Positions 42,741 through 51,800 of a DNA stretch of 51,800 nucleotides are shown in pieces. Location of the stretch: the NCBI GenBank assembly GCA_027488755.1, contig JAIYAZ010000076.1:1-51800 (forward strand), in the 5' to 3' direction. The stretch's first letter is position 1. Every line of letters starts with the position of its first letter. The DNA comes from Verrucomicrobiaceae bacterium (lineage in GTDB: Bacteria > Verrucomicrobiota > Verrucomicrobiia > Chthoniobacterales > JAATET01). A program made the translations under genes and the position numbers. The notes under the pieces were generated by a model. That model made no database searches, was not told the DNA's origin, and saw nothing but the letters and a program-made list of their open reading frames with translations.

Positions 42741-42974
42741 ATGATAAGGCTGATCAAAGCATACGGAGTGAATTTCACTGAGGTCGTCGCGGCCGTGCGC
42801 CCGCCGACAGGTTGCTCCCGTAAATCCACGCGACGTGCCCTGATCCTAGACGTCGTTGTCATCGGGAAAAAGGCCTTCGAGGCACTCAGTGACGAGGAGC
42901 GCGAAAAGCTCATCAAGGAAGCGCAGCCTTTGCGGGACGAAATCATCGCCGCTGGTCGCCCCCGATTCTCGTGA
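42741..42974 (+). pseudogene. Small ORF, possible remnant of a solute-binding protein
   Basis: ATG 42741 gives 77 residues. The first third (MIRLIKAYGVNFTEVVAAVR) is unlike the rest. The second half reads ALILDVVVIGKKAFEALSDEEREKLIKEAQPLRDE, which resembles the conserved 'D-V-V/L-x-I-S-K-K-x-W/F-x-x-L-S-x-E' segment near the end of TRAP-type DctP solute-binding proteins. I read it as a degraded fragment at the border between the catabolic region and the mobile element. It could also be a small unknown protein. Confidence 0.3.
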
Positions 42975-43174
42975 CCAGAATCAGCGAAAACGTTCTTTCG
43001 GAATCCACGTAAAACCGGAGCTCATTTCCTCGTGTGTTACCCCACGTTGAAAGTGGAGCCTCATGGACACTCATCTTGGAGGAATTTCACAGAGAAAGTG
43101 GACGAAACAAGGGGTTGCTGAGAAGGATCCAATTCGAAGCGGTACTTTTATTCGAAGGCTGCATGGGTGTCGGG
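42975..43174. other. Non-coding stretch at the mobile-element border
   Basis: No convincing coding frame is visible on either strand here. An ORF from 43063 on the plus strand has poor composition and runs through the terminator. If the tyrosine recombinase belongs to an integrated element, its left attachment or transposon end would be expected in or just beyond this stretch; I could not find a clear end repeat. Confidence 0.35.
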
Positions 43175-43209
43175 TAAAAAAGAACGCGGAGAGCTTGCGC
43201 TCTCCGCGT
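43175..43209 (-). terminator. Intrinsic terminator for the tyrosine recombinase gene
   Basis: Positions 43184-43209 form a perfect hairpin, ACGCGGAGAGC-TTGC-GCTCTCCGCGT (11-base stem, four-base loop). Read on the minus strand it is followed by a T-rich run (TTCTTTTTT), the standard rho-independent layout. It lies about 140 bases after the recombinase stop. There is no T run in the plus direction, so it acts on minus-strand transcription. Confidence 0.8.
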
Positions 43210-43350: not shown

Positions 43351-46300
43351 CTACGGAATCATTGAAGAGCCGGCGTAGTCGCAGGAAGTCACGGCAGTGG
43401 AAACATGCCCGAGTTGGCAGCTATGGGCGATGTAGGTCAGGATGTTGTTCCGGCGGGGGGTCCCCATCACGAGAATCTGGTTAGCCGCAATGGCACTTCG
43501 GCGCAGGCAGTGAGGGGTAAGTGGTTTTCCCGGGAGCGCATGGGAAAGGATGTATTCCATGGCTCCTTCGCTGAAGGCGGAGTGAGCGCCGTGGATCGAC
43601 AACACCGCCTGCTGAAGTTCCGGAACATACTGGCGCAGCGTGGGCGGGCAGCAGGTCGCGGTCGACGTAGTCCGAACACCGGCTGGTGTTTTGGCCTTCG
43701 GGATCGCGAGGTAAACTTCATTTCCGAGAACTTTGGTGCCGCGCGAATTAATGATGCTGCTTTGAGCAACCGGAACGTGGAGCGCGAACGCGCGTTTGAT
43801 TTCCCCGATTCTCAATCCGGCGAGCAACATTGCGTAGAACGCGGCGAGAAGATTTGTCTGCAGCCGCTGCTTTGCGGTTTGCCGGTCTTTGGGTGAAAGC
43901 TTCACCCCTTTGCGGGCGAGCTTGGGCTTGATGTCACAGATGCCCTGCTTCACGGCAACAACGAGCGGATCTATTTCACCCGCGAGAAGAACTCGTGACG
44001 GAGGCGAGACGGCGTGTAATCCACGATTCCAAAGAAGCCGAGAAATGTGACGCTCGACGGATTGCGGGTGATTTGGATTGAAGGCGACCAACTTCGCGGC
44101 TGCCTTGATGGATTCAGTGGATACGGCGTAACGATCCGGCCGGAGAATCCGAAGAGCGATTTCTGCGCGCCCTGCAATGTCCGCTGGCGGCAGATCGCGA
44201 ACCTCGAGACGTTGCCGAGTCGAGCATTTCACCTCGCCCCGCAAGGGCCGCTCGTGAGGCATGAGGAATGTCGACCCATCGGAAAGATGGACGAGTTGGG
44301 GATTTGGCATGCCACGGAGTTCGAAATCATCACGGTAGTCGATGTGGTTTAGGATGCGGAGCGGCGAACCCAGCAATTGGCCCGCGACGAAGCCAGGCAG
44401 GAGCCAACGGCATCGCACGCGCGCGCATTCCTCGATGAGGCCTTCTGTTGTCGATATGCCCAGATTCGAGAGGGCCGCAACAACCTCGGTGTAAAACTTG
44501 TTTGGCGTAGGCACACCAAAAGTGGTCTTACTCACCGCATCGCATGCCCGGATGATCTCACCAATCTGTTCCCCGTCTCCAGAGGGCAACGGAACAAAAT
44601 ACGGGCTCATGAACCCCGCATTCGAGTCAGCCGCGAGCATCAAAAAGTGGAGGGAGCCGGATTGTTGTTCTCGGAGGAAGTGCTTGGTGGAGTAGTAATG
44701 CCGATAGTCGTAAAGATTCTCCGGTGGGACGCCCCGAAGCGCGGCAAACAGCGCAAAGCGCGTGAAGGGTTTAACCTGGAACGTCGGAGAGTTGACCAAC
44801 AGCTCAAGCTGCAATCCGATCTGATCCGCCGGTCCGCTGATTCCGACGGGCATGTCTTTCCGCTCATGAGGAAGGGGGACAGTTTCCGATGGCAGCTTGG
44901 CCGGTAGGCAGCATTCATCCAAAAGGGAGGCGAGATCTTGCGCGAGCGAATCGACGCCGTGACGGAGGAAGAACTCCGTGAGTTTCTCGCAAACGTCACG
45001 AGCAACGAAGTCGACCGATTCTGGCCGGTGACAATCCCAAAGGTGCATCTGCGGCGAATGACCAGCGGCCGCGTAGCCGGTGCGTTCGTCGAATCCGTCG
45101 ATGAGCATTTGGTTCACAAATGCCGTGCGGCCCGGTTGAGCGGCATCGCCCGTGCGGGCAAAGATCGGTCGGATCACGCCAAAGGATGTCCTTGGGAGCG
45201 TTGCGAGCGAACATGTAGTGCCACTTGCGTCGAGGTATGGGAGCTCACCCTCGCTTCCGAAAAGACACTTCAGCTTGGTGAGGAGGATCTGCAGCCCACG
45301 CGTGATGGGGAGGATACGGGCGACCAACTCGCCGCTGACGACCTTGTCCGCAATTTGGAGGTGCTCAAAGGGCCATTCGCGCCGGCGGGCATTGAGATTA
45401 AGGTGTTGACGGCAGCGACGCAGCCCCAAAGCGCCCTCGAAATGGCGGAGACATGCCAGAGCGCAGTTGTGCAGCGCATATTGGTCCGTGCTCTTGATGG
45501 ATTGGTCTCGGACTTGTGCGATCCACCGCCGGGTTGAATCCAGATACTCCTTGTAGGTTGGGGCCTGAGCGCCGTGAAACTGGGCGGGTGAATTTGGTGG
45601 CGCCAGCGTCGGGGTCGGTAATCCCGCCGTGTGGTAGATGCGAGCGAGGTATTTGGAGTGCGTGGCCCAAAGCTGATCGGATGCGGCGCGCACGTAGTAC
45701 CACGGACCGCGGGAGCCAAGGATGGGGTGGCCCTCAATGAGGGAAACGTATTGGATCGGGGTATCGAGCTCCAACAGTTGCACGTGGCGGTGCGCCCGGT
45801 GCATTCCTGCGGCCTGTTTAAGCGGGGAAAGAACGCCAAAACGCGACTGCCAGAGTTTCTGGTCTTCGGCATATTCATCGGCAAACTCACTCGTCCCGAA
45901 AAGTTCGCCGAGTTTTCCGGACGAGTGGTCGATGCCGAGGATTTTGAGCAGGGCAGTGATCTGGGGGAGGAGTGCCAGTTCAAGGTGCGACTCACGCCGG
46001 CAGTCGGCCGAGTAATAATCGCCGCCCAGCTCGCGGATGGTTTTGTTGGCTTGAGGCCAAAGCGAGATCGGGCCGCCCAGGCAGTTGATTCGAACGTGGG
46101 GACAGGCGTCCGGCGCGACCGCGTAGTAGATCCCGAGTGCGTTGACAAGAAACCAGCGTGCAGTCCGCCGTCGGCTGCTCGGCGGTTCTTTCGAAGACAA
46201 AAAGTCTTCCAACTCATTGAGAAAATTGGGAACGGCGGCGAGAAGGGGATCGGTGGGGTCGTAGCTCGGGCGACCGTATGCATTGGAGAGAAGCGGCTCC

Positions 46301-46839
46301 GGTTGAGCGTGGTCGCTCGGACCGCTGGGGCGAAGCACTGGTTCCCCCGAGGCGAGCCGCTTGAGGCGGTTGACTTCCTGCGATGCAAATCCAGAAGTGA
46401 GATGAGCAAGATCGTCATTCGGGAGCGCCCGGGCACGAATGAGCATGGTGTTCCCGTCGAGAACGTCGTCGTGGAAAAGGTGCGCGTCGGAATGGACCGG
46501 GTTGCGGAACGCGGCTGCCAGCCAGCGCCGGGCGAGTCGGGGCAACTGCTGGTATGCTCTCTTCCGTGTCTCGGGATCAGCCGAAGCGAACAGCTCTTTT
46601 TGCTGCAGGATGAGCAGAGCGATTTCCTCGGCCAGATCGAGAAGCCAAGGAAGCGAGGCAAGCAGCAGCAACCACACCTTGCGGGATAGCCCGCGGACGT
46701 AGCAACTCAGTGGGGCGGTGCTGGCTTTGGGGTGGCTCCAATCTGGCTCCTCCGTGACGGCGGCAAGGACGCCGGAGTCCTTGAACGAGGAGAGGATCGG
46801 ATAGGTTTGCTCGGGTGTAGGTGATGATTTTTCGTGCAC
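43351..46839 (-). CDS. Giant tyrosine recombinase / integrase (1,162 residues)
   Basis: The last 170 residues hold a complete tyrosine-recombinase catalytic set: Arg1010 (LLAGLRIGEIKR), a Lys in the beta-hairpin region (AIPKAKT), His1110-x-x-Arg1113 (LTPHCLRRSAIA), His1145 (QLGHVSTAV) and the nucleophile Tyr1155 (CDYAG). Spacings are canonical. The preceding ~970 residues are unlike normal integrases, which are 300-400 residues in total, and I recognise no domain in them; there are Leu-rich helical parts near residues 45-80. The start is GTG 46839, directly after an AGGAGG sequence and only two codons after an in-frame stop, so it is well defined although the spacing is odd. It diverges from the transposase gene and ends at its own terminator. 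Confidence 0.85.
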   Translation of the reverse strand: MHEKSSPTPEQTYPILSSFKDSGVLAAVTEEPDWSHPKASTAPLSCYVRGLSRKVWLLLLASLPWLLDLAEEIALLILQQKELFASADPETRKRAYQQLPRLARRWLAAAFRNPVHSDAHLFHDDVLDGNTMLIRARALPNDDLAHLTSGFASQEVNRLKRLASGEPVLRPSGPSDHAQPEPLLSNAYGRPSYDPTDPLLAAVPNFLNELEDFLSSKEPPSSRRRTARWFLVNALGIYYAVAPDACPHVRINCLGGPISLWPQANKTIRELGGDYYSADCRRESHLELALLPQITALLKILGIDHSSGKLGELFGTSEFADEYAEDQKLWQSRFGVLSPLKQAAGMHRAHRHVQLLELDTPIQYVSLIEGHPILGSRGPWYYVRAASDQLWATHSKYLARIYHTAGLPTPTLAPPNSPAQFHGAQAPTYKEYLDSTRRWIAQVRDQSIKSTDQYALHNCALACLRHFEGALGLRRCRQHLNLNARRREWPFEHLQIADKVVSGELVARILPITRGLQILLTKLKCLFGSEGELPYLDASGTTCSLATLPRTSFGVIRPIFARTGDAAQPGRTAFVNQMLIDGFDERTGYAAAGHSPQMHLWDCHRPESVDFVARDVCEKLTEFFLRHGVDSLAQDLASLLDECCLPAKLPSETVPLPHERKDMPVGISGPADQIGLQLELLVNSPTFQVKPFTRFALFAALRGVPPENLYDYRHYYSTKHFLREQQSGSLHFLMLAADSNAGFMSPYFVPLPSGDGEQIGEIIRACDAVSKTTFGVPTPNKFYTEVVAALSNLGISTTEGLIEECARVRCRWLLPGFVAGQLLGSPLRILNHIDYRDDFELRGMPNPQLVHLSDGSTFLMPHERPLRGEVKCSTRQRLEVRDLPPADIAGRAEIALRILRPDRYAVSTESIKAAAKLVAFNPNHPQSVERHISRLLWNRGLHAVSPPSRVLLAGEIDPLVVAVKQGICDIKPKLARKGVKLSPKDRQTAKQRLQTNLLAAFYAMLLAGLRIGEIKRAFALHVPVAQSSIINSRGTKVLGNEVYLAIPKAKTPAGVRTTSTATCCPPTLRQYVPELQQAVLSIHGAHSAFSEGAMEYILSHALPGKPLTPHCLRRSAIAANQILVMGTPRRNNILTYIAHSCQLGHVSTAVTSCDYAGSSMIP

Positions 46840-46861
46840 CTCCTAGTTTATTTTCCCGAGG

Positions 46862-46884
46862 GGGGGGTGTTCAAATGACCCCCC
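46862..46884. promoter_or_regulatory. Inverted repeat GGGGGGT-N9-ACCCCCC between recombinase and transposase genes
   Basis: A perfect repeat with seven-base arms and a nine-base A/T-rich spacer (GTTCAAATG) sits in the 78-base gap between the divergent recombinase (start 46839) and transposase (start 46918). It is the obvious candidate for an operator that controls both mobility genes. A recombination or transposase-binding site is an alternative. Confidence 0.5.
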
Positions 46885-46903
46885 GGAGCGGAGGTGGCCG
46901 ATG

Positions 46904-46910
46904 GGTATCT
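46904..46910 (+). promoter_or_regulatory. GGTATCT start-proximal motif, copy 1 (transposase)
   Basis: GGTATCTCCCGCCC ends directly at ATG 46918, with the motif starting 14 bases before the start codon. Nearly the same string precedes the genes at 50758 and 51403. There is no Shine-Dalgarno sequence, so this may be a -10-like promoter element for leaderless or near-leaderless mRNA. Confidence 0.45.
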
Positions 46911-46917
46911 CCCGCCC

Positions 46918-48423
46918 ATGAAGACCCCAAATACACTGATAGATGAGCGGCAACTGCGCCGAATCACCGAATCCCAAGCCCTACTGAGCCGTTTCCGGGA
47001 TTCGGGATTGAGCCCCTATCACTTCGCGTTGGAGACGGGCGTGCCGGCCAGCCGGATCTACCGTTTGGAGGCGCGAGAAGCGGCGGGCGGGCTTACGGGA
47101 TTCGCCGATGGGCGGGCGAAGAATGGGCGGAAATCCTCCGTTTCACCAGAAGCCGTCCTGTGGACGTTGGGCTACCTTGCGGAGCATCGCCGCGGCACGC
47201 TCACCGGGGCGTGGCGAAATCTTCGCCAGGTTTGCGAGGTTCGCGAATGGCGGTATCCCAGCTATGCTCAACTTGCCCGGGCGGTGCGGATGTTGCCGGC
47301 CGATATCCGGGCCCACATGGTGCAGGGCTCCCGGCACCACTTTGAATCCTGGGGGTTGGTCAAACGCGTCGAAGTGGAAACGCCGAACCTGTGCTGGCAG
47401 GTGGATGCGACCGAAATTCCCGTCTGGGTTCTGGACCCTGTCACCGGCAAAACCTTCAAACCCTGGGCGATCGGCATGATCGACTGTGCCACGCGGGTGG
47501 TGATGGGATACCACGTGATGCCGGCGGCCCCCAATACTGGGGACCTCGTGCTCGCCTTGCGGAGCGCCATCCTCCCGAAGGACGACCCGCGCTTCCCGTT
47601 CTTTGGGCGGCCTCAGGCCGTGCAGTCCGACAACGGCAGCATCTTCAAGTCAGCCGACTTCTTGGATGCGCTTCTCAAGCTGGGGGTTGTGCACCGCCCC
47701 ATTGAGAACGATTGCCCCAGCGCGAACGGAAAGATCGAGCGGTTCTTCCGAACGATCCACGATGGGTTTGCGCGCAACCTGATCCAATTCGCCGAGCAGC
47801 ACCGCGCCCTCCAAACCGCGCGGGCCATGCCCCTGCCGTTTCCGCTCCTTGCCCGGCAGGCCGAAGCGTTCCTGGTCGAATACCACCTGCGTAAGCACAA
47901 AACGCTCGGCATCTCTCCGTGGGAGGCCTGGCAGAACGGGCTCGCGGATGCCTGCGGTTTCAACTTTGACCGAGGCGAGGTCATCGATGCGTGCAAAATC
48001 CGCCTTGAGCGGCGGGTGGCACGGGACGGGATCGAAATGGGCGCGGGGGTTCACTTTTCGGCGCCGGAACTGGCGGGACTCGTGGGAGCCACGGTCACGC
48101 TGCGACTGAGCCCGGATCGGACGGAAACCGCGATCCCTTGCTTCTATCGCGGGGAACTCATCGCCGAACTCCGCCGCGTGGAGGGTGACGATGCTCTCAG
48201 CCAAGCGATCCGCAGCGCCCGCCTTGAGCGCGCCAAGGAGGTCGCCCGGCTGCGCAAGTCGCTTCTCAAGGCGGCGGCGCGCATCAGTCCAAATCAACCG
48301 ACGGCATTGCCCCCGGGAATGCCGATCACCCTTGGAGACGAAACGGCCGCCGGCGAGGGAGAAGCCGAAGGAACCCAAGGATTGGAGATCCCGGACCTCG
48401 GCCGGGAGGAGGACGAGGAGTAA
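46918..48423 (+). CDS. DDE transposase of the Mu/TniA/TnsB (rve) type
   Basis: This 501-residue integrase-core transposase has the DD(35)E triad Asp163 (CWQVDATEIPVW), Asp238 (AVQSDNGSIF) and Glu274 (SANGKIERFFRTI). An N-terminal helix-turn-helix region (about 10-60, SPYHFALETGVPASRIYRLEAREAAGG) would bind the ends, and a beta-barrel Mu-transposase-C-like part (about 345-430) is followed by an acidic tail (LGREEDEE) that could contact the ATPase. ATG 46918 (MKTPNTLIDERQ) is preferred over GTG 46894, which would include the GGTATCT motif in the coding region. The AAA+ partner is encoded downstream across an antisense toxin-antitoxin pair. Confidence 0.9.
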   Translation: MKTPNTLIDERQLRRITESQALLSRFRDSGLSPYHFALETGVPASRIYRLEAREAAGGLTGFADGRAKNGRKSSVSPEAVLWTLGYLAEHRRGTLTGAWRNLRQVCEVREWRYPSYAQLARAVRMLPADIRAHMVQGSRHHFESWGLVKRVEVETPNLCWQVDATEIPVWVLDPVTGKTFKPWAIGMIDCATRVVMGYHVMPAAPNTGDLVLALRSAILPKDDPRFPFFGRPQAVQSDNGSIFKSADFLDALLKLGVVHRPIENDCPSANGKIERFFRTIHDGFARNLIQFAEQHRALQTARAMPLPFPLLARQAEAFLVEYHLRKHKTLGISPWEAWQNGLADACGFNFDRGEVIDACKIRLERRVARDGIEMGAGVHFSAPELAGLVGATVTLRLSPDRTETAIPCFYRGELIAELRRVEGDDALSQAIRSARLERAKEVARLRKSLLKAAARISPNQPTALPPGMPITLGDETAAGEGEAEGTQGLEIPDLGREEDEE

Positions 48424-48472
48424 GTGGGCAGGAATCCGTCTTCCCTCGTAGGACGTCCATTCAACTCAATGT

Positions 48473-48796
48473 CTAGAGCGCGAGAAGGTCGCGGATGGCG
48501 CTCTTCACGGAGGCTAGGTGCGAATCGGTGAGCTTCCCGAGTCTGCGAAGGAGTGCGCTCTGGTCGATGCTGGCAAGCCCCTGGACGTTGACGGCGGACG
48601 GCTTGGAGAGCCAGCGCGGCTTTCCAAGGTCCACTTCTCCGCGCAGACCTCGAAGCTGGGAGGTGAGGGGAGCAACTACCACCAAAGCCCGCGCGTCCTC
48701 GGGTTGGGGAAAGGCCAGAACAACGACCGGCCGTTGCTTGGCGGCCAGGCCAAAATCCACCACCCAAACTTCTCCGGGCTGCGGATCAGTATTCAC
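48473..48796 (-). CDS. MazF/PemK-family endoribonuclease toxin
   Basis: This 107-residue protein has the MazF/PemK fold pattern: PQPGEVWVVDFG start, KQRPVVVLAF, LVVVAPLTSQ, and the closing LASIDQSALLRRLGKLTDSHLASVKSAIRDLL. MazF toxins cut mRNA at short sequences and are neutralised by a partner bound across the active site. Its ATG at 48796 overlaps the end of the upstream antitoxin gene by 11 bases. It lies antisense to, and between, the transposase and its ATPase, so it probably stabilises the mobile element. Confidence 0.88.
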   Translation of the reverse strand: MNTDPQPGEVWVVDFGLAAKQRPVVVLAFPQPEDARALVVVAPLTSQLRGLRGEVDLGKPRWLSKPSAVNVQGLASIDQSALLRRLGKLTDSHLASVKSAIRDLLAL

Positions 48797-49013
48797 CGAG
48801 GCTCTGATCCCACGTCTTCCCTTGCTCGGCGGTCGTTAAAACCCGATCCGGCTGCGTGGAAACGACAAACGGTAGATCCCCGCGCATTTCAACCTGAGCG
48901 AGGAAGATATTGAAGGCATCGCCAGGTTTCATTCCCAACTTGGCAAACACCTTTTCAGCCTTGCGCAAGCGGGCCGTCGGAACGCGCGCCCGAAAGAGAG
49001 TCGTCGATGCCAT
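48786..49013 (-). CDS. RelB/DinJ-family antitoxin
   Basis: This 75-residue protein looks like RelB/DinJ, with the N-terminal ribbon-helix-helix stretch ASTTLFRARVPTARLRKAEKVFAKLGMKPGDAFNIFLAQVEMRGDLPFVV. The second half (STQPDRVLTTAEQGKTWDQSLGEY) would wrap the toxin. DinJ-type antitoxins usually pair with YafQ/RelE toxins, so its partnership with a MazF-type toxin is a cross-family pairing. As in most such pairs the antitoxin comes first and is translationally linked to the toxin. Its start codon is preceded by three 10-base-spaced repeats likely bound by this protein. Confidence 0.82.
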   Translation of the reverse strand: MASTTLFRARVPTARLRKAEKVFAKLGMKPGDAFNIFLAQVEMRGDLPFVVSTQPDRVLTTAEQGKTWDQSLGEY

Positions 49014-49014
49014 G

Positions 49015-49039
49015 GCTCAAAAAGGCTCAATTAAGCTCA
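49015..49039 (-). promoter_or_regulatory. Three phased GCTCA repeats upstream of the antitoxin gene
   Basis: GCTCA occurs at 49015-49019, 49025-49029 and 49035-49039, exactly ten bases apart and therefore on one face of the helix (TGAGC read on the coding strand). The first copy is one base from the antitoxin start codon. A TTGACA-like -35 box (TGTCAA on plus, 49042-49047) lies next to them. They are good candidates for autoregulatory binding by the ribbon-helix-helix antitoxin. Confidence 0.55.
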
Positions 49040-49133
49040 CGTGTCAATCCCGGGGGCCTCCAAACCCGAATTGGCTCTGCCAAAAGATTTCTGCATAGGT
49101 CGGCCGGATTCATCCCTCTTGAGAGGTATAGCC

Positions 49134-49955
49134 ATGGAAGAGCCACCTACTGATCCCGAGGGATCCCGCCCCGCCCCTGCCGCCGATGACCTTGCCCGCG
49201 TCGTCCTGCCTCACACCGAAGCCGCGCTCGCCCTCGCCCGCGAGTGTTCAATCCTGCACTGCTTGGGAGCGATCGCCGGGATCCCCGGGACGGGAAAAAC
49301 GACCGTGCTGCGATCCATCGTTTCCCGGCATGAAAGCATCTCAGGCGAAGGGCGAGCCCTCTACGTGCGGGCCACGCGGGGATTGGGGGCCACGCGCGGC
49401 ACGCGGGATCTCCTTGAGGCGCTGGGTTTGGCGCCCGGTCTATTTCCCCCGAGTTCACCCGCGCAGCATCTGAAGCGGCTTGCGCTCCACCACCTGCGGC
49501 AACAGAACGTCCGGCTCATCTGCGTGGACGAGGCCGACGGCTGGAGCCCGGAGGCCTTTCAGACCTTCGTTGGGTTATATGACCATGCGTTGAGCAGTGA
49601 GCTGCCGTTGAGCGCGATCTTTGCCGGATCGACCAACATGCTGGGGTGGCTCAAGGCCTACGCGGCCGGGATGTCCCGCACCCTGCGCTGCGAAACCTTC
49701 GTGAACCTTTCCCCGGCCCATGTGGTTGCCGTCCTTCGGCAATGGAATCCGCTCTTCGGGGAATTTGCGACGGGCGTGTCCCGCGGAGATAAGGAAAGTC
49801 GCCGGGCTCTCACGGTCGTGATGCGGAACACCGGCGGGAATCTCCGCCGGTTGAGTTTCTTCGCGCGCCTCTTCCGGCTGCATTTTCCGGACGGACCGGT
49901 AACGACGGCAAACTTTGAGATCATCGAGCGCCTTCTCATGAAGGTGGATATGTGA
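49134..49955 (+). CDS. TnsC/MuB/TniB-like AAA+ ATPase
   Basis: This 273-residue protein has Walker A GIPGTGKT (49-56), Walker B LICVDEAD with Asp132-Glu133, a sensor-1-like SAIFAGSTNM and a C-terminal helical lid (RNTGGNLRRLSFFARLFR). Such ATPases load on target DNA and deliver the DDE transposase. ATG 49134 (MEEPPTDPEGSRP) has a GAGAGG ribosome-binding site seven bases upstream, so the longer frame from 49041 is rejected. The start region also contains the short inverted repeat CCTCT-TG-AGAGG. The stop overlaps the next gene as TGATG. Confidence 0.88.
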   Translation: MEEPPTDPEGSRPAPAADDLARVVLPHTEAALALARECSILHCLGAIAGIPGTGKTTVLRSIVSRHESISGEGRALYVRATRGLGATRGTRDLLEALGLAPGLFPPSSPAQHLKRLALHHLRQQNVRLICVDEADGWSPEAFQTFVGLYDHALSSELPLSAIFAGSTNMLGWLKAYAAGMSRTLRCETFVNLSPAHVVAVLRQWNPLFGEFATGVSRGDKESRRALTVVMRNTGGNLRRLSFFARLFRLHFPDGPVTTANFEIIERLLMKVDM

Positions 49956-50722
49956 TGGCCGACGTTGCTTATCCGATCAGCCAAAAGCGGCGCTTGATTG
50001 AGCTGGTTGAACGCCTCTGCGCGGAACTGGAACGTCCGGTGTGCAGCGGTGATCTTCAACGTCATCTTCGCCTCGTTCCCGACGACCGCCCGTTCCTGCT
50101 CAAATGCTTCGGGCAGCAGTTGTTGAGCGCGGCTCAGCCGCTCAAGGGAAAAATCGGCCGGCGCCTCTACCGGGTCGGCACCTATGGCGCGAAAAACTAC
50201 TATGCGCCGGCGCCCGGTGAGCCGTGGACCTCGCGTTTCGCGGCCATGGTGGCGGCAAAGGAATGGGCGAACTTCGAACACCTGGGCATCGCAGCCGCGT
50301 TCCACGAGGTTCGTTCCCGGGTGTCTGCGCCCAAGTTGGAAGCGGCGCTCGCCGCTTACGAAGGGGAACGGGAGTTCCTCCATTCGGGTGGTTCCCCTCG
50401 TTCAAGAGCGATCCATGAACCCACCAACGAAAGTTTGGCCCGCATCCGCACTGCGCAGGCATTGATCAACCGCCGCGAGGCTTCCGGCGTTCTCACGCGG
50501 CTTGTCGCCTCCCGCCGTGAATCGCTCTACGCGTTTTCTCCGTGGCGGCACTTGAGCGAATTGCGATGGCCGCAATGCGCAGGTGCGCCCGAGCGTTATC
50601 GCCAGGGTTACCTCGTGCCGCAGATGGAAAGCTACGTCGTTTGGCGCTGGCCCCAACGGGGAGAGGACGTGGCGCTTGCCCGGGCAAGGTTTTACGGCTG
50701 GAGATACGGCGTTGAGCTCTGA
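49955..50722 (+). CDS. Unrecognised protein encoded next to the transposition ATPase
   Basis: This 255-residue basic, soluble protein belongs to no family I can name. Its start ATG shares a base with the ATPase stop (TGATG), with GTG 49952 as an alternative. It has a helical N-terminus (ISQKRRLIELVERLCAELERPVCSGDLQRHLRL) that could be a winged-helix domain, a central helical region (about 85-160) and a C-terminal aromatic-rich stretch (YVVWRWPQRGEDVALARARFYGWRYG). The position corresponds to that of target-selection proteins such as TniQ/TnsD in related elements, but no CxxC zinc motifs are visible, so that identity is unsupported. DNA binding is likely. Confidence 0.55.
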   Translation: MADVAYPISQKRRLIELVERLCAELERPVCSGDLQRHLRLVPDDRPFLLKCFGQQLLSAAQPLKGKIGRRLYRVGTYGAKNYYAPAPGEPWTSRFAAMVAAKEWANFEHLGIAAAFHEVRSRVSAPKLEAALAAYEGEREFLHSGGSPRSRAIHEPTNESLARIRTAQALINRREASGVLTRLVASRRESLYAFSPWRHLSELRWPQCAGAPERYRQGYLVPQMESYVVWRWPQRGEDVALARARFYGWRYGVEL

Positions 50723-50743
50723 ACCGGGCGGTTTCCGGCGGGC

Positions 50744-50750
50744 GGTATCT
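50744..50750 (+). promoter_or_regulatory. GGTATCT start-proximal motif, copy 2 (sigma-like gene)
   Basis: GGTATCTGCCCGGC precedes the GTG start at 50758 by 14 bases, the same spacing as copy 1. The preceding sequence is GC-rich with no Shine-Dalgarno site. Confidence 0.45.
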
Positions 50751-50757
50751 GCCCGGC

Positions 50758-51288
50758 GTGAAGATTACGCAAGGAACGGCCTGGCAGCGCGAGTTTTTGG
50801 AGCAGGGGAGTGTTTACCGTCGCCGCATCGAGGCCCTTTTGGCCGCCAACGGAATCTGCGACGACGCGTTGTCGGCGTCCCTCTTCACCGATGTCTACTT
50901 TGCCCTCGGGCGGGCGAGGGAAGCGGAGGGCCGCACGCTGCCTTCGGCCTACGCGATGATGGTTGCCCGGCGCAATCTCTGGCGGGAACTCGCCGCCATC
51001 GCCCGCCGCCGCCAGCACGAAGTTCCGCTCACCGAGGTGAACGCGGATATTGCCCTGCCCGTACGGGCAGATTCTTCGCTTTCGCTGCGGGACCTTCAGG
51101 AAGCACTTGCGGTTGCTTCCTCGAAGGATGTCTCCATTCGGATCGCCCGAATGATCGTTGCCCTCGTTGCGGAGAATCAGATCCCCACGCAAACCGTGGT
51201 CGCACGCCAACTCGGCATCGATCAATCGACGGTTTCCCGTCACTGGAAGTCTGCTGGCCGCCTCCTCCGCCGGCTCTGGCTGAATTAA
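50758..51288 (+). CDS. Small sigma-70-like / HTH protein of the mobile element
   Basis: This 176-residue protein begins with GTG, eight bases after the GGTATCT motif. The N-terminal half (RRRIEALLAANGICDDALSASLFTDVYFALGRAREAEGRTLPSAYAMMVARRNLWRELAAIARR) resembles the helical region 2 of ECF sigma factors, including an ALxxARN-like segment. The C-terminal end (IPTQTVVARQLGIDQSTVSRHWKSAGRLLRRLWLN) is a region-4-like helix-turn-helix. I infer a sigma-like regulator that may read the element's own promoters. A simple DNA-binding regulator is possible because the region 2 match is weak. It lies 35 bases after the previous gene. Confidence 0.5.
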   Translation: MKITQGTAWQREFLEQGSVYRRRIEALLAANGICDDALSASLFTDVYFALGRAREAEGRTLPSAYAMMVARRNLWRELAAIARRRQHEVPLTEVNADIALPVRADSSLSLRDLQEALAVASSKDVSIRIARMIVALVAENQIPTQTVVARQLGIDQSTVSRHWKSAGRLLRRLWLN

Positions 51289-51387
51289 AGGCCATCCATT
51301 CACTGCGAGCGCCGTCGTCGAAATTTCGTCTCCGCTTTTGCCCCGCCGAATGACGTCCGGAGGCCTGCTCGTTCAAAAATCCCGCCC

Positions 51388-51394
51388 GGTATCT
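51388..51394 (+). promoter_or_regulatory. GGTATCT start-proximal motif, copy 3 (last gene)
   Basis: GGTATCTCCCGGCCG precedes ATG 51403 by 15 bases and is followed by ATGAAAACACCAA, close to the ATGAAGACCCCAA of the transposase start. The similarity to copy 1 therefore extends through the first codons. Confidence 0.45.
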
Positions 51395-51402
51395 CCCGGC
51401 CG

Positions 51403-51800
51403 ATGAAAACACCAACCCAACGCATCGGTCGCCGGCTCCAGTCATTCAACCTGCCGAAGGGCCCAGACGAGCAGTCGTTCGTGATTCAAGCGCGTCGCTA
51501 CTTTACCGAGATGCAGGAATTGCTCCGGCAGTGGACCGACGAAACCGCCGCAGCACAGGCAACCCTGGCGGCCATCGACAAGGAACTCTACGGGCACTTC
51601 GGATTAACGTCGCAGATCCTTCGGCACTTCCACCAACTCCACCTCGCGGAAGGCTGGGACCGAAAGAAGCTTCTCGAAGTCGGCCTCGCGATCGCATCGG
51701 TTCACATCCTTGCCTTGGGGGATGCCCTCGCGGACGACTCTCCGGACTTCCAGTTCCTGCTCTCGATTGACCGTTCGATCGGGAATTATTTCGGGGTCAG
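51403..51800 (+). CDS. Unknown element protein, 3' end cut by the window
   Basis: The frame is open from ATG 51403 to the last base, at least 132 residues (MKTPTQRIGRRLQSFNLPKG onward). It is predicted to be mostly helical (YFTEMQELLRQWTDETAAAQATLAAIDKELYGHFGL, then LLEVGLAIASVHILALGDAL), with no motif I recognise. It shares the MKTP start and the upstream GGTATCT motif with the transposase gene, so it belongs to the same element. In transposable phages the genes after the transposition pair are small regulators or replication helpers, which is only a loose parallel. Confidence 0.6.
   Translation, partial: MKTPTQRIGRRLQSFNLPKGPDEQSFVIQARRYFTEMQELLRQWTDETAAAQATLAAIDKELYGHFGLTSQILRHFHQLHLAEGWDRKKLLEVGLAIASVHILALGDALADDSPDFQFLLSIDRSIGNYFGV

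Follow-up and report, generated by a model that had tools for sequence, protein, structure and literature searches.

Two recombination chemistries in one verrucomicrobial element: a giant tyrosine recombinase in the place of a serine resolvase, with a probable role in cointegrate resolution

Why should one mobile element encode two recombination chemistries side by side? The question is raised by the final 8.8 kb of a 51,800-b stretch of DNA from a Verrucomicrobiaceae bacterium (hereafter, the window), an entire contig (C38) of a draft genome that totals 3.48 Mb in 169 contigs and is 99.8% complete. These 8.8 kb form the left part of a single mobile element, copy E1, in which a giant tyrosine recombinase on the minus strand is followed, across a gap of 78 bases (46840-46917), by a DDE transposase on the plus strand, a toxin/antitoxin pair on the minus strand, an AAA ATPase on the plus strand, genes for a 256-residue protein and a 176-residue helix-turn-helix (HTH) protein, and the start of a second AAA+ gene, within which the reading stops at the contig end (51800; Table 1). 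An earlier note on this DNA had placed the two chemistries and the 78-base gap where they are indeed found and had asked whether one element uses both systems or two elements are nested. The evidence favours one element, probably a replicative Tn552/Tn402-like transposon that has the giant tyrosine recombinase in place of the serine resolvase.

The linkage of recombinase and transposase, the conservation of their catalytic residues and the position of the left end are read directly from the sequence. A search with the recombinase revealed two further copies in the host genome, E2 (contig C15) and E3 (contig C129), each beside a transposase of the same family; a fourth copy, E4, is present in a congener (G002). 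The E4 genes occupy the ends of two contigs, the recombinase on C73 and the transposase on C131; because these ends share exactly 141 identical bases, E4 is read as a divergent pair whose genes are 68 bp apart, a join that rests on the assembly overlap. In 4/4 copies the recombinase (1,162-1,306 residues) directly adjoins a TnsB/Tn552-type DDE transposase, the two genes being divergent in E1 and E4 and co-directional in E2 and E3. Among 213 genomes of the order, both families are confined to the same two; in a phylum sample of 388 genomes, they were seen in the host genome only. Further relatives were sought in public collections, with limited sensitivity beyond the phylum, the back-translation searches reaching mainly close relatives. 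Recombinase and transposase-profile searches of the genome contig collection found no relatives, viral contigs yielded none of the recombinase or ATPase and two weak matches to the transposase, plasmids held no relatives of the E3 and E4 recombinases, the 256-residue protein or the ATPase, and phages held none of the recombinase. A more distant transposase (32-36% identity) is carried on contig C111 of the congener, and no giant recombinase was seen among the open reading frames listed near it.

The left end of the element, TGTTACCCCACGTTGAAA, lies at 43035, outside the recombinase gene, and not at 43351, where the element had first been taken to begin. A 194-b repeat stops one base before TGTTACCCCACGTTGAAA, while its other two copies (C129 and C7) stay homologous past the break point and contain no element; position 43035 is therefore taken as the element border. 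The exact sequence TGTTACCCCACNTNGAA occurs three times in the genome: in E1, on the left side of E2 (C15:18614, 1.4 kb left of the 313-residue gene of that copy) and as a solo end (C101:59294). A second copy of the end motif lies approx. 50 bp inside each of the three, as well as in a two-mismatch site at C129:18811; the repeated motif is a candidate transposase-binding site. Since two-mismatch sites are at chance level genome-wide (approx. 6 expected by estimate, 3 seen), the left end of E3 (C129:16129) is only tentative, and E4 has only a weak candidate end, TGTTAGAGCAC. As judged from these ends, the recombinases of E1 and E2 sit within the left end of their elements.

The recombinase frame of E1 is open throughout. 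In particular, R1010, K1050, H1110, R1113, H1145 and Y1155, which make up the R-K-H-R-H/W and tyrosine set, are invariant in four relatives and unchanged despite an overall identity of 24-28%, and the C-terminal 200 residues align with a profile of eight integrases (hhalign E = 3e-7). The full catalytic set claimed in the earlier note is thus borne out, and by its sequence the protein is a member of the tyrosine recombinase superfamily with an active-type C-terminal domain at approx. 990-1160.

The approx. 970 residues ahead of this domain had been described as lacking any recognisable domain, which holds only in part. The N-terminal half has no Pfam match, but this absence carries little weight, because HMMER barely picks up the C-terminal catalytic domain of E1 either. 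This half is conserved along its length in all four copies, with invariant residues densest at 451-550. Residues R474, K499, R571, G582, G593 and H594 are invariant and include the motif R-25-K-72-R-23-H, with spacings that we take to be close to those of XerD, whereas residue 603, at the position of the tyrosine, is Tyr in E4, Cys in E1 and Leu in E2 and E3. The motif set was obtained in 0 of 20,000 label shuffles of the invariant columns, for a motif picked after it had been noticed. In sliding hhalign comparisons with the integrase catalytic domain, blocks over 421-651 align 131-134 columns (E about 0.03) and score approx. 20, versus 8-14.5 for blocks that avoid both this region and the C-terminus; as a whole block, the N-terminal half matched neither integrases nor its own C-terminus, and the weak peak appeared only with shorter, realigned blocks. 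A single-sequence AlphaFold model of residues 415-665 (mean predicted local distance difference test score, pLDDT, of 36) was not used. Residues approx. 460-604 probably form a second recombinase-like domain that is mostly unable to cleave and would serve instead to hold on to DNA or to a partner subunit.

The transposase (likely start at ATG 46918, stop at 48423) matches Pfam rve (PF00665) above the cut-off and Mu-transpos_C just below it, its catalytic residues D171, D246 and E282 are invariant in the aligned family, and its closest relative of solved structure is ShCAST TnsB (PDB 7svw, 1.6e-26). The ATPase (ATG 49134 to 49955) matches AAA_22 above the cut-off and TniB just below; such a TniB/TnsC-type ATPase lies downstream of the transposase in E1-E3, and none lies beside the E4 transposase. 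The 256-residue protein, which had been noted to occupy the position of a targeting protein, keeps that position in E1-E3; however, Pfam and NCBIfam yielded no match and hhalign no similarity to the one TniQ compared (E = 0.22), and to call it a targeting protein would be a guess. Its single-sequence AlphaFold model (mean pLDDT 40) was likewise not used. A TniQ could conceivably lie beyond 51.8 kb. Among the proteins scanned with Pfam and NCBIfam there is no TnsA, the right part of the element being missing from the contigs, and the available element sequence contains no recognisable serine resolvase.

The transposase has plasmid relatives at 23-34% identity, including staphylococcal Tn552-type transposases, and nine annotated plasmid regions around such distant relatives were examined. 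In seven of the nine, a serine resolvase of 190-199 residues directly adjoins the transposase and the ATPase lies directly downstream; all seven resolvases match PF00239 (E 1e-35 or better). Four are divergent from the transposase (Novosphingobium, Methylobacterium, Pseudosulfitobacter and Acetobacter) and three co-directional with it (Citricoccus, Enterococcus and Staphylococcus). The remaining two regions have a recombinase gene past TniQ (Ancylobacter) or recombinase genes further off (Megaera). The giant recombinase occupies the same slot, in the same two orientations, as these serine resolvases, and no serine resolvase lies beside the transposase in E1-E4, where the tyrosine recombinase is found instead (4/4). 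The label "Mu/Tn7-like" given by the earlier note was roughly right, although the annotated plasmid relatives are of the Tn552 type with a serine resolvase. The same note had considered that homologous transposase-ATPase modules might always be found without the recombinase, which would then lie outside the element ends. In the close family neither is the case: all close copies have the recombinase, and only the distant relatives lack it and have a serine resolvase instead.

TnsA-less transposons leave cointegrates, and in this transposon branch the solutions known to us rely on a small serine resolvase or on recombination by the host. In the mechanism proposed here, the DDE transposase and the AAA ATPase would bind the repeated sites at the TGTTAC ends, and the transposase would nick the 3' ends and join them to the target. 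Because the second strand would stay uncut in the absence of TnsA, the product would be a cointegrate in which the element is present twice, and the giant recombinase would recombine both copies at a site within the element, which would release donor and target. We infer the cointegrates, their resolution, the role of the N-terminal domain and any choice of target. The resolvase role is proposed because the recombinase shares slot and orientations with the serine resolvases, because ShCAST produces cointegrates (PMC8188705), and because tyrosine resolvases exist in the Tn3 family (PMC7157771).

Several observations count against a resolvase role. No recombination site was identified, the giant recombinase is far larger than the resolvases of that slot, and E4 keeps recombinase and transposase with no ATPase genes adjoining. 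Moreover, neither a right end nor a target duplication was found in E1-E3, as their contigs break first: C38, C15 and C129 all end inside the second AAA+ gene, and a TnsA or another resolvase could lie beyond the contig end. A hunt for the right end on contigs C19, C119, C98 and C30, which carry the 3' half of the second AAA+ gene, found terminators and repeats and no TGTTAC-type end.

As no recombination site was found, an integrase role is conceivable. The tyrosine recombinase might excise and reintegrate a circle independently of the DDE transposase, as its complete active site would permit; GInts are islands that rely on several tyrosine recombinases, among them a degenerate one (PMC5385486), and repeats at the E1 junction also occur near tRNA genes. 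However, no attL/attR pair was seen, the element terminates on the left in a TGTTAC end of the transposase type, which is repeated 50 bp further in and is common to copies at different places, and distant relatives have serine resolvases in the slot, so that such an independent integrase is unlikely. We also think it rather unlikely that a pre-assembled two-headed recombinase, with one active and one mostly non-cleaving domain, adds circle excision and reintegration to DDE copy-and-paste.

It has been shown that a tyrosine-recombinase derivative can serve as target selector, as does TnsF of Tn6022 (PMC10293859), and a conserved recombinase-like domain mostly without the tyrosine would suit a protein that binds the insertion site for the transposase. 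Nevertheless, the C-terminal active site is intact in 4/4 copies, whereas TnsF lost its own; no TniQ was found and the recombinase contains no CxxC zinc motifs; and the copies lie in different neighbourhoods (E4 beside atpG). Such a function is accordingly quite improbable. The transposase and ATPase might also be the MuA and MuB of a Mu-like transposable prophage whose remainder lies beyond the contig end, as their best PHROG matches are phrog_310, phage transposase (9e-51), and phrog_296, DNA transposition protein (2e-13). This is very unlikely: no other module gene matches a phage structural family (the right part being missing), no phage record matches more than 59% of the transposase, and no phage-like genes were read on the E3 side up to the tentative left end. 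Only one element end is readable, yet it is hardly credible that an unrelated tyrosine-recombinase element was inserted beside the transposase, since the pair is adjacent in four copies although the recombinases are only 24-58% identical, and since recombinase and transposase group alike (E2 with E3), whereas the ATPase block groups E1 with E3. With four linked copies and a left end outside the recombinase, the first of the alternatives left by the earlier note, one element with both systems, is retained, and nesting is disfavoured.

The elements are mosaic. E2 and E3 are the closest pair by both genes (recombinase 58%, transposase 79%; other pairs 24-28% and 49-62%, respectively), whereas the ATPase, 256-residue and HTH genes pair E1 with E3 (90, 66 and 61%) and set E2 apart (29-38%). 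This discordance is consistent with exchange among elements on the right-hand side of the transposase, the recombinase/transposase pair travelling together. The sequence [GC]GTATCT stands shortly 5' of the start codon of the transposase in E1-E4 and of the HTH (or 298-residue) and second AAA+ genes in E1-E3 (10/10); in 43 kb of window sequence elsewhere it occurs four times, both strands counted. The motif may act as a promoter or leader particular to these elements, and if a promoter, perhaps one read by the sigma-like HTH protein. The inverted repeat reported in the 78-base gap is present as a single imperfect repeat (arms of 8, spacer of 7), but an equal arm length is reached in 19% of shuffles, as chance alone would allow. 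Such repeats between the two genes, at 19% of shuffles in E1 and in E4 alike, were dropped as evidence.

Table 1. Features of element copy E1 and its left junction (window coordinates).
Feature	Position	Strand	Remarks
194-bp repeat, target side, outside element	42841..43034		stops at base preceding element; 94% identical to C129:15436-15629 and C7:11057-11250
Left end of element, TGTTACCCCACGTTGAAAGTGGA	43035..43057	+	exact TGTTACCCCACNTNGAA 3x in genome
Subterminal second copy of end motif (TTTCACAGAGAAAGTGGA), 50 bp inward	43085..43102	+	candidate transposase-binding site
Hairpin and T-run, likely recombinase-gene terminator	43176..43208	-	by reading; conserved at C101 solo end
Giant tyrosine recombinase, 1162 aa	43351..46839	-	C-terminal catalytic domain ~990-1160; probable second recombinase-like domain ~460-604
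Imperfect inverted repeat in 78-bp gap	46862..46884		at most candidate crossover site or operator
GGTATCT leader motif ahead of transposase start	46904..46910	+	
DDE transposase (TnsB/TniA type), 501 aa from internal ATG	46918..48423	+	
MazF/PemK-like toxin, E1 only	48473..48796	-	PF02452 6e-14
RelB/DinJ-like antitoxin, E1 only	48786..49013	-	TIGR02384 5.5e-9, under its cut-off
TnsC/TniB/MuB-type AAA ATPase	49134..49955	+	start set by E3 comparison
256-aa protein, no family match	49952..50722	+	conserved in E2 (303 aa) and E3 (258 aa)
GGTATCT leader motif ahead of HTH gene	50744..50750	+	
176-aa protein, sigma-region-4-like HTH	50758..51288	+	TIGR02937 1.1e-4, under cut-off; 61% identical to E3
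GGTATCT leader motif ahead of second AAA+ gene	51388..51394	+	
Second AAA+ ATPase gene, start only, cut by contig end	51403..51800	+	ATPase core visible in E2

The surroundings of the copies offer further observations. The E4 transposase ends approx. 210 bp from a gene read as atpG (L068:2541-5123), which places E4 in or beside the ATP synthase gene cluster. Between the tentative E3 left end and the recombinase operon, proteins of 1326 and 390 residues, each with a P-loop-like motif, were read (L013:9755-14954); they are probably cargo and possibly serve in defence. Relatives of the second AAA+ gene, 43-70% identical and each followed by a strong hairpin, are found outside E1-E3 (L029:9029-9679, L030:1-651 and L028:3650-5107). 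Dispersed repeats (GGATCAACGAGCGCCTACA and similar; L026:10688-11775, L030:1318-1564, L093:870-1000 and L012:3678-3752) lie near a gene for tRNA-Asn, near one for tRNA-Ser, after second-AAA+ remnants and just inside the E2 left end. Contigs C97 (28300-32252) and C98 (1-2100) of G000 (L031, L028), which overlap by 119 identical bases, carry approx. 8 repeats of approx. 60-146 bp (77-90% identical, 0.4-1.2 kb apart) with short open reading frames between them and small integrase frames on both contigs; this region looks like an integron cassette array. E1 alone has, between its transposase and ATPase genes, a MazF-like toxin with a RelB-like antitoxin, which recall the toxin-antitoxin pairs of Tn3-family elements (PMC7157771).

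A giant tyrosine recombinase in the resolvase slot would be an independent solution to cointegrates, and a single polypeptide that joined an active to a non-cleaving domain would lend itself to studying how half of a tyrosine-recombinase complex stays silent. A resolvase type found with a related transposase is also of practical interest, because type V-K CRISPR-associated transposons (CASTs) have no identifiable resolvase. No tyrosine recombinase in this Tn552/Tn402-type slot was reported in the open-access literature searched, which is not proof of novelty.

Among known systems, the Tn552-like plasmid transposons (transposase p480, ATPase p271, serine resolvase) share with the present element a recombinase that adjoins the transposase, an ATPase downstream and the two orientations; in contrast, their recombinase is a small serine enzyme, and no 256-residue, HTH or second AAA+ gene is apparent in the annotated regions. 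Tn402/Tn5053 elements (tniA, tniB, tniQ, tniR) possess TniQ and a serine resolvase. Their TniA-like DDE transposase and TniB-like ATPase have counterparts here, where no TnsA was seen either, whereas their TniQ and serine resolvase were not found. ShCAST, a TnsA-less type V-K CAST in which no resolvase can be identified, yields more than 85% cointegrates (PMC8188705); its TnsB is the closest solved relative of the transposase, and in the present element no TniQ was recognised, CRISPR parts not having been searched for. TnsF and Tsy are further known systems; there too, a tyrosine-recombinase-type protein belongs to a TnsB-type transposon (Tn6022). TnsF is inactive, has 498 residues with zinc fingers and pairs with TniQ (PMC10293859); N-terminal zinc fingers, a lost active site and a TniQ partner were not seen for the giant recombinase. 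In GInt islands (GinABC), active and degenerate tyrosine recombinases cooperate (PMC5385486), but as separate proteins, and no DDE transposase is among the four defining genes. In the Tn3 family, a tyrosine recombinase (TnpI or TnpS/TnpT) is the cointegrate resolvase, in divergent or colinear arrangement (PMC7157771); its recombinases are small and its transposase, TnpA, is unrelated, whereas the present transposase is of the rve/Mu-C type.

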